From Methanotorris igneus Kol 5 (lineage in GTDB: Archaea; AGJL01; Methanococci; Methanococcales; Methanococcaceae), in assembly GCF_000214415.1 (NCBI RefSeq), contig NC_015562.1, positions 1,527,130 to 1,591,129 on the forward strand: DNA of 64,000 nt, written 5' to 3'. The notes beneath the pieces are model-generated. The model saw only the letters and a list, made by a program, of their open reading frames with translations, was not told where the DNA came from and made no database searches. Shown one piece after another: positions 7,870-10,131 of this stretch; the first letter of the stretch is position 1, and the number at the start of each line of letters is the position of its first letter. Position numbers and translations under genes: made by a program.

Positions 7870-8013
7870 AGGAGATGGATATTGAAATCTACCAATGAGG
7901 TTGTAAAAATCCAAAAATTAATTTTTTTCAATCTTAATTTGAGATAAGTTTAAATAGCCAATTTAGTTAAATTATATTATAATGAAAATAAATTTTAGTA
8001 AAAGGTGAGATAC

Positions 8014-9228
8014 ATGTTGAACGAACCAGTAATAGAAATAGCAACAAAGGAAGTAGTTACAGTAACACCAGACACGCCAATAACAAAAGCAGTAGGAATA
8101 ATGGAAGAGAACCACTTCCACAACTTAGTAGTTGTTGATGAGAGGGGGGAGTTATACTTAGTAACCATGCATGATTTGTTGTTGGCTTCATCAGTTTATG
8201 AGCATGTTGGGGAGTTAATGTTTAAACCACACTGCATACACAAAGACACTCCAGTGATGGATGCGGTTTGTGAATTAATCGACAGTGGGCAGAGAGCAGC
8301 ACCAATCGTAGATGATAAGGGTAAATTGGTGGGGATTGTAACTGACTACGACATAATGAAGAGGGCAGCAACCTCAAAAATCTTGAAAGATGTTGAAGTA
8401 TCAAAAATAATGACAAGAAACCCAATAACCATACATGAAAATGAAAGCATTGGTAAAGCAAGGTCATTAATGAGAAAACACAACATTGGAAGATTAATAG
8501 TTGTTGATGATGAGGAAAATCCAATAGGCATTGTTACAGAAGATGACATATTGAAGAAGGTCTTCAAACCAAAAAGAAGAATGACTGTTGGGGAATATTC
8601 AGGAGAAAAAACCCCAAGAATGGGACAACCGGTTAAGTCAATAATGAGTTCCCCATTAATAACAGCAGATGTAAACGCTACAGTTGCAGATGTTGCAAAA
8701 TTAATGCAAGAATATGACATTAGGGGAGTTCCAATTTTAAAGAATAAGATGTTGAGGGGGATTGTAACAAGATTGGACATAATGAAGTATATTGCTGACT
8801 TGAAGAAGGGGGCGATGATTGAAGTCGAACTTCATGGGGCGTTAGATGAGGAAATGAAGGACTTGGCAGAAAGAATTATTGCAACAGAAGTTAAGAAAAT
8901 GGTTAAACATGCAGGAAGAATACACTGGATAAAAATAAACATTAAGAAAGAACATGACAAAGGGGGAACACCATACTACCACATAACTGTATATGTTAAA
9001 ACACCAAACAAGTTGTATGTTGGAGATGCATCACCAAAATTATCAAAGACAAAGAGATTAGAGGCAGAAGGAGAGGACATTGGATACATATCAGAAAAAC
9101 AAAGATGGGACTTCATTGAGGTATTGAAACATGCTTTAATATCAGTTGAAAAACAAATAGATGCTGATAGGGAAAGATATCACCCAAAAACTGTTGGTAA
9201 GAAACTCAAAGAAGAAGAGGTAGAATAA
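8014..9228 (+). CDS. Four-CBS-domain protein with C-terminal HPF-like domain
   Basis: A 404-residue protein. Four CBS modules fill residues 1-265, each with the usual end motif (GKLVGIVTDYDIMK, NPIGIVTEDDILKK, LRGIVTRLDIMKYI); such pairs bind adenine nucleotides. Residues 268-395 read as strand (IEVELHGA), long helix (DEEMKDLAERIIATEVKKMV), three strands (IHWIKINIKKE, YYHITVYVKT, KLYVGDA) and a last basic helix (VLKHALISVEKQIDADRER). That is the order and spacing of bacterial HPF/RaiA ribosome hibernation proteins. The start is ATG 8014, after AGGTGAGA; the GTG at 8005 sits inside that site. A nucleotide-sensing ribosome-binding role is inferred. Confidence 0.8.
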   Translation: MLNEPVIEIATKEVVTVTPDTPITKAVGIMEENHFHNLVVVDERGELYLVTMHDLLLASSVYEHVGELMFKPHCIHKDTPVMDAVCELIDSGQRAAPIVDDKGKLVGIVTDYDIMKRAATSKILKDVEVSKIMTRNPITIHENESIGKARSLMRKHNIGRLIVVDDEENPIGIVTEDDILKKVFKPKRRMTVGEYSGEKTPRMGQPVKSIMSSPLITADVNATVADVAKLMQEYDIRGVPILKNKMLRGIVTRLDIMKYIADLKKGAMIEVELHGALDEEMKDLAERIIATEVKKMVKHAGRIHWIKINIKKEHDKGGTPYYHITVYVKTPNKLYVGDASPKLSKTKRLEAEGEDIGYISEKQRWDFIEVLKHALISVEKQIDADRERYHPKTVGKKLKEEEVE

Positions 9229-9310: not shown

Positions 9311-9359
9311 TTATAATTCACCTTTTAGTAAAAGTTGATTTAGTAAAAGTTGATCAATC

Positions 9360-9435
9360 GATGAAATCCTTCGGATTTCATCACCTAAACCTTCGGTTTG
9401 GAACGGATAGGATGCCTTGCTTTGCTCGGCATCCT
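9360..9435. repeat. Cluster of three intergenic hairpins
   Basis: Three inverted repeats stand side by side. At 9360-9382 there is a perfect 10-bp stem with a TTC triloop. At 9385-9401 a stem with the same CC-TTC-GG apex. At 9409-9435 an 8-bp stem (aggatgcc/ggcatcct) with an 11-base loop. The block is richer in G+C than its surroundings. A leftward reading frame across it has no family resemblance and was not called. Confidence 0.7.
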
Positions 9436-9503
9436 TCCTTAGCCTAGCTCTATTGTAAGCACTTTCCTTATTGACTATTAAATTTTGTTTAATGGTGTGT
9501 GCC

Positions 9504-9962
9504 ATGAAAAATAGAGAACTAAAAGTAAAACCTATACAAAACGGCACTGTTATAGACCACATCAAAAGTGGAAAGGCACTTGACGTTTATAACATCTTAA
9601 AGATACCGGATGATTTACCTGTTATGTTGGCTATGAATGTTCCTTCAAAAAAGATGGGCAAAAAGGACATTCTAAAAATAGAGGGATTAGAACTTGGCTC
9701 AGATGATGTAAATAAAATAGCTCTAATTGCCCCAGATGCGACAATAAATATTATAAGGAATGGTGAGGTTGTAGAGAAATTTAAAGTAAACATCCCAGAT
9801 TATATTGAAGGACTTTTAAAATGCACAAATCCAAATTGTATAACAAATAGGGAGAATGTTGAAGGAAAATTTGTCATAGAAAGCAAAAATCCATTAAAAA
9901 TTAGATGCAAATATTGCGAAAAATTCTTAAGTGCCATCATATATGACGGCTCTCCGCCCTAA
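9504..9962 (+). CDS. pyrI: Aspartate carbamoyltransferase regulatory chain
   Basis: PyrI is the zinc-binding regulatory chain that joins PyrB trimers and mediates CTP/ATP control of pyrimidine synthesis. The protein (about 152 residues) begins [20 protein letters not shown] with the nucleotide-binding N-domain. The zinc ligands are CTNPNC and, about 30 residues later, CKYC. The ATG at 9504 follows GGTG; upstream TTG and ATG codons lack a fitting site. The last residues (DGSPP) and the stop codon are written by a GC-rich hairpin: TAA lies in the loop of the stem at 9952-9971. The catalytic pyrB is not in the window. Confidence 0.93.
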
Positions 9963-10131
9963 AGGGCGGAGTTTCGGGAGAGCAGAGGTTAAAAACCTCG
10001 CCCTCCCCGGCTCCGCCAAAGCCACTACCCCTATCTCCGTTTAGGAGATTCGGGGATACCTTCTCTCAACACAACGCCCCCAGCGGTGGGATTTTCGAAA
10101 ATCCCACCCATTAATAACGTGGACTGGGGGC
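9952..10131. other. GC-rich island with many hairpins (ncRNA or mobile-element remnant candidate)
   Basis: About 180 bp far richer in G+C than the surrounding AT-rich DNA. Stems: 9952-9971 (ctccgccc/gggcggag, loop TAAA), 9985-9999 (gaggtt/aacctc), 10033-10049 (atctcc/ggagat) extended by cccc/gggg, and a perfect 24-bp palindrome at 10085-10108 enclosed by gcccccag (10076-10083) and ctgggggc (10124-10131). In hyperthermophiles with AT-rich genomes such islands often mark structured RNAs. It does not match RNase P, SRP or tRNA signatures on either strand. An IS200/IS605-type end is an alternative, since the gccc-TAAA-gggc stem recurs at 10395-10414. Confidence 0.5.

Follow-up and report, generated by a model that had tools for sequence, protein, structure and literature searches.

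The window analyzed here is a 64,000-nucleotide stretch of the Methanotorris igneus Kol 5 genome, which consists of a single contig of 1,854,197 bases. A gene on the forward strand of this window (8014..9228, stop codon included) begins with ATG and encodes a HibA-type protein of 404 amino acids. The list of open reading frames places the start at GTG 8005. However, this codon falls within a Shine-Dalgarno-like AGGTGA (8003..8008, forward strand) located 5 nt before ATG 8014, and orthologues align from M-L-N-E-P. Thus, ATG 8014 is taken as the start, and residue 268 therefore corresponds to base 8815, the coordinate given in the initial annotation. Farther upstream on the same strand, a TATA-like TTTAAATA (7949..7956) might serve as an archaeal promoter; like the AGGTGA element, it was read from the sequence.

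Four CBS domains are recognized by Pfam (PF00571 x4, E 1.6e-57), all encoded on the forward strand. The T-x-x-D motif is typical of nucleotide-binding CBS domains, and it is found in all four of these copies. CBS1 and CBS2 (residues about 6-120; 8029..8373) carry the motif at T51/D54 and T110/D113, CBS3 (residues about 128-183; 8395..8562) at T175/D178, and CBS4 (residues about 207-264; 8632..8805) at T252/D255. Between CBS3 and CBS4 lies a segment termed the PTC loop, KPKRRMTVGEYSGEKTPRMGQP (residues 185-206; 8566..8631, forward strand). The remainder of the protein is a C-terminal HPF/RaiA-like domain (8815..9225, forward strand), assigned by structure prediction, Foldseek searching and profile comparison, within which residues 341-364 (9034..9105, forward strand) form an insertion, placed after strand 4 and before the last helix, that is specific to a subfamily of these proteins. 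Pfam finds no domain behind CBS4, and neither Pfam nor NCBIfam names anything beyond CBS for this protein. NCBIfam matches to IMP dehydrogenase, HhpR and PrdR involve CBS sequences only, fall far under their cut-offs, and were rejected.

Fold and homology of the C-terminal domain

The initial annotation proposed that the C-terminus has the beta-alpha-beta-beta-beta-alpha order of bacterial HPF/RaiA, and this order is seen in both AlphaFold2 models that were built. A model of the C-terminus predicted with 16 relatives (pLDDT 75.9, pTM 0.70) has elements E9-13, H18-39, E44-53, E59-68, E73-78 and H95-127. The same order appears in the model of the whole protein, at residues 270-275, 279-300, 305-314, 320-329, 334-339 and 367-388. 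Confidence in both models is moderate, with mean pLDDT values of 76 for the C-terminus and 78 for the whole protein. The HPF-like succession of elements is not continuous, however, because a long segment of low confidence (about residues 341-364; 344-364 in the whole-protein model) parts the last strand from the last helix.

When the C-terminal model was searched with Foldseek against 350,542 PDB chains, ranks 1-22 were all occupied by HPF, RaiA, pY, RafH or chloroplast pY chains, which are hibernation factors on bacterial or chloroplast ribosomes. These matches have E values from 1.2e-3 to 4.5e-2 and probabilities of 0.94-1.00 at only about 10% sequence identity, with TM-scores to the target mostly between 0.44 and 0.76. 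Matches to folds other than HPF reach probabilities of at most 0.41. The fold library used ends at 2026-04-08, and the published HibA chain was matched by sequence without a fold match. The whole-protein model also matches archaeal four-CBS proteins, including SriA from Methanosarcina and Dri from Pyrobaculum.

Profile comparisons provide a second route to the same family. Canonical archaeal HibAs were gathered by a PF02482 search of Halobacteriota genomes. The matches fall in the C-termini of CBS proteins about 390-470 amino acids long, and six canonical archaeal proteins, with lengths of about 390-440 amino acids, score over the Pfam cut-off. The subfamily to which the window protein belongs aligns with the canonical HibA C-terminus over 107 columns (P 1.4e-5), and none of 200 column shuffles gave an equally good result. 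Canonical HibA in turn matches ten bacterial HPF/RaiA sequences (P 1.3e-8). This chain, which is in register over the whole domain, supports homology of the C-terminal domain to bacterial HPF. The direct comparison of the subfamily with bacterial HPF is weak (P 0.003-0.007, with 2 of 200 shuffles equally good), and Pfam reports no PF02482 match in the window protein or elsewhere in the M. igneus genome, whereas relatives of the window protein give weak sub-threshold matches. Therefore, the relationship to PF02482 that had been suggested is found by way of canonical HibA, but the direct link is marginal. The fusion of a CBS array to an HPF domain is nonetheless borne out by structure prediction, fold search and the profile chain together. 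Bacterial HPF/RaiA/pY proteins share the fold, but they lack a CBS module and the insertion of residues 341-364.

Searches of the PDB with other queries were less informative. The C-terminus alone gave no phmmer match. A narrow Methanococci profile retrieved RecA fusion chains only through a summing artefact (i-Evalues of several hundred), and its IFRD2 match (E 1.7) is attributable to chance.

HibA and a divergent subfamily

The initial annotation mentioned possible reports of archaeal hibernation factors with CBS domains and therefore called its novelty uncertain. Such factors do exist, and the doubt was justified, as the CBS-HPF fusion was published as HibA in Nat Commun in April 2026 (PMC13324472). 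That study combined cryo-EM, translation inhibition and gene knockout in Thermococcales, with Pyrococcus abyssi Pab0961, Thermococcus kodakarensis TK1186 and T. barophilus TERMP_00697 as members and PDB entries 9SR9-9SRF and 9T7H (PMC13324472). In P. abyssi, the C-terminal HPF domain occupies the mRNA/tRNA channel of the 30S subunit, and the CBS module adopts three positions on the 50S subunit, one of which places loop 190-207 in the peptidyl-transferase centre. HibA inhibits translation in vitro, and deletion of hibA in T. barophilus lowers stationary 70S ribosomes by about 60% and doubles the lag (PMC13324472). The family is present in 47% of archaeal genomes and its CBS clade is monophyletic; Methanococci and ANME are unnamed in the main text of the paper (PMC13324472).

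The best PDB sequence match of the window protein is P. abyssi HibA chain 9sr9_H (phmmer E 3.5e-26), and the family profile matches this chain from CBS1 through the PTC loop into HPF strand 4 (E 1.3e-39). The 9SR9 entries are confirmed as HibA complexes by the data statement of the paper (PMC13324472). The molecule name under which chain 9sr9_H was deposited, 'Dehydrogenase', would lead annotation transfer astray. The two proteins share four CBS domains and a C-terminal HPF/RaiA domain in matching order and are similar in length (404 versus 392 amino acids), but only about 25% of residues are identical across the CBS module and 22% across the C-terminus. Both also carry the PTC loop between CBS3 and CBS4, where conservation is strong (KPKRRMTVGEYSGEKTPRM in the window protein versus KPRFKAQYGELAGEKIPPF in P. 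abyssi). The loop pattern is KPxxRMTxGExxGEKxPRM, and the GExxGEK loop of the window protein aligns with P. abyssi residues 190-207. GExxGEK is absent from the loops of SriA, SriB and SriC where alignments print them. These proteins are among SriA-D of Methanosarcina acetivorans (9ZNF, 9ZNG, 9ZNI), which, like Dri of Pyrobaculum calidifontis (9E6Q, 9E7F), are ribosome-bound archaeal CBS-module proteins. Unlike HibA, the matched Dri and Sri chains align to the window model over its CBS part only, and Dri has two CBS modules and no HPF domain (PMC13324472), whereas the window protein has one module.

Other features separate the window protein from its Pyrococcus counterpart. Between columns S340 and W365, all 15 subfamily representatives have 22-25 residues, whereas all 23 canonical HibAs have one; residues 341-364 are a real lineage-specific insertion. 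This conserved insertion on the ribosome-binding domain is newly identified and uncharacterised. The SAL insertion of three residues between strand 1 and helix 1 in P. abyssi is a gap in the window subfamily. It is also missing from two canonical HibAs (L137 and L144) and thus is no defining feature of all HibA. Between strands 2 and 3, where P. abyssi has the insertion KFRGVHL, the window protein has an aligned K-GGTPY that is one residue shorter.

In trees of both the CBS module and the C-terminal domain, the 15 subfamily representatives form one group, fully apart from the 23 canonical HibAs. On these sequence grounds, the window protein is a member of a divergent HibA subfamily of Methanococci, Methanophagales and Methanoliparum that is added here to the published family. 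The C-terminal domain is present in 34 of 36 Methanococci genomes and in Methanophagales and Methanoliparum MAGs. Among 247 sampled genomes of Halobacteriota, 31 have it with a match of 1e-35 or better. A search across the phylum of M. igneus yielded nothing further, as the phylum in the set searched comprises the same 36 genomes. The presence of a HibA-type factor in the hydrogenotrophic methanogens of the Methanococci is confirmed, and the lineages of the subfamily include the genetically tractable Methanococcus maripaludis. A transposon insertion near a CBS protein in the latter species (PMC10133366) was considered and set aside, since no tie to the orthologue of the window gene was established. 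In the Halobacteriota sample, no genome carries both the inserted subfamily and a confidently recognised canonical HibA, a pattern whose weight is limited by modest numbers of genomes and by their shared ancestry. Also, a contig filed under a Candidatus Nitrosotalea MAG (DYFG01000011.1; L059) encodes a HibA almost identical to that of a Methanophagales genome (L058), and this contig is probably mis-binned or transferred.

Proposed function and competing explanations

The gene very likely encodes a ribosome hibernation factor of the HibA family in this Methanococcales archaeon. Once growth ceases, the HPF/RaiA-like domain at the C-terminus would occupy the 30S mRNA/tRNA channel. The four-CBS module would extend to the 50S side, and its PTC loop could enter the peptidyl-transferase centre. 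Idle 70S ribosomes would thereby be blocked and protected. By analogy with P. abyssi HibA, we infer an equivalent mode of binding to the methanogen ribosome for the subfamily. The M. igneus genome encodes one other long stand-alone CBS protein, of 287 amino acids, in which no HPF domain is found. Given this absence and the lack of a PF02482 match, the window protein is the only evident HPF-type factor in the genome.

Three other explanations were weighed. One is an independent fusion, in which a different four-CBS module was joined to an HPF-like domain in an event distinct from the one behind the HibA of Thermococci, Archaeoglobi and halophiles; the product would still act on the ribosome. 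The CBS-module tree leans in this direction, as the subfamily groups (92/82) with stand-alone SriB and the 287-amino-acid CBS protein rather than with canonical HibA, and the branch leading to the subfamily in the C-terminal tree is long (3.02). Imposing a single HibA clade on the CBS-module tree costs 3.7 log units, but such a clade is not rejected (p-AU 0.09). Furthermore, this tree joins long branches and contains only four outgroup rows, three of which were assembled from alignments in print, and the monophyletic CBS clade in the published analysis opposes an independent fusion (PMC13324472). The shared PTC loop, which the printed Sri alignments lack, and the common domain order and junction favour one origin for the subfamily and canonical HibA, and a separate fusion is considered unlikely.

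Less probable still is an HPF-fold protein that acts off the ribosome and regulates another process, for example DNA replication or recombination, using the CBS module to sense adenylates. P. abyssi and T. kodakarensis HibA appeared in pull-downs with proteins of replication and recombination (PMC13324472), and divergence of the subfamily shows in its new loop and in the almost neutral charge of its C-terminal domain (27 K+R, 26 D+E). Against such a role, the window protein keeps the PTC loop that contacts the ribosome in P. abyssi, and the genome has no other evident factor of the HPF type. The last alternative, a chance likeness of an unrelated alpha/beta domain to HPF, could draw on the silence of Pfam and the marginal direct similarity noted above, but it is largely refuted by the uniformly HPF-type top 22 chains and by the significant profile link to canonical HibA, which is in register through the whole domain.

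Within the preferred reading of the gene as a HibA-family hibernation factor, the role of nucleotides deserves separate consideration. The initial annotation suggested that adenylate energy charge could be coupled to ribosome inactivation. P. abyssi HibA binds one AMP per module at CBS3/4, with a Kd of 12 uM, yet AMP and ATP caused no clear change in its ribosome binding (PMC13324472). Energy-charge coupling is one of the weaker parts of the initial interpretation. The single nucleotide at CBS3/4 matches the occurrence of T-x-x-D in CBS3 and CBS4 only of the P. abyssi protein. The window protein has the motif in these same two domains, which form the ATP/AMP site of P. abyssi HibA, but carries it also in CBS1 and CBS2. 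Across the subfamily, the motif is always present in CBS2 and CBS3 and is present in CBS4 of all members but one (L122), and that of CBS1 varies, its first residue being N, Y or S. Adenylate binding by the CBS module of the window protein is probable, and the motifs suggest that there may be more sites than in Pyrococcus HibA. A bolder and rather doubtful proposal is that the extra loop gives the HPF domain a new contact and that adenylates in both CBS halves gate ribosome binding, unlike in P. abyssi. With apparently intact nucleotide sites throughout, the subfamily is where energy-sensing ribosome hibernation could best be tested.

Genomic surroundings

Methanocaldococcus and the sister species both keep the gene order hibA-pyrI-AcnX swivel gene-NOG1. 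In the latter and in two other Methanococci, purQ lies ahead of hibA. NOG1 is a ribosome-assembly GTPase family. Because the rest of the neighbourhood consists of nucleotide or lipid genes, gene context adds little to the assignment. The M. igneus genome also encodes SBDS, which sits on idle ribosomes beside HibA in P. abyssi.

Additional features were observed near the gene and elsewhere in the genome. The intergenic region between hibA and pyrI contains an element (9320-9460) with three strong hairpins and an RNA fold z-score of -4.6, for which no Rfam match was found. Partial copies occur at four other places in the genome with 73-86% identity, and the element is thus a dispersed structured repeat. 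Between pyrI and the AcnX swivel gene, positions 9951-10061 on the reverse strand give a sub-threshold match to Rfam sot0042 (34.9 bits against a cut-off of 88, E 1.2e-6). Finally, two near-identical copies of a gene encoding roughly 515 amino acids and ending in two CBS domains (L003 and L004) lie far apart in the genome, at about 1834812 and 757980 of its contig.
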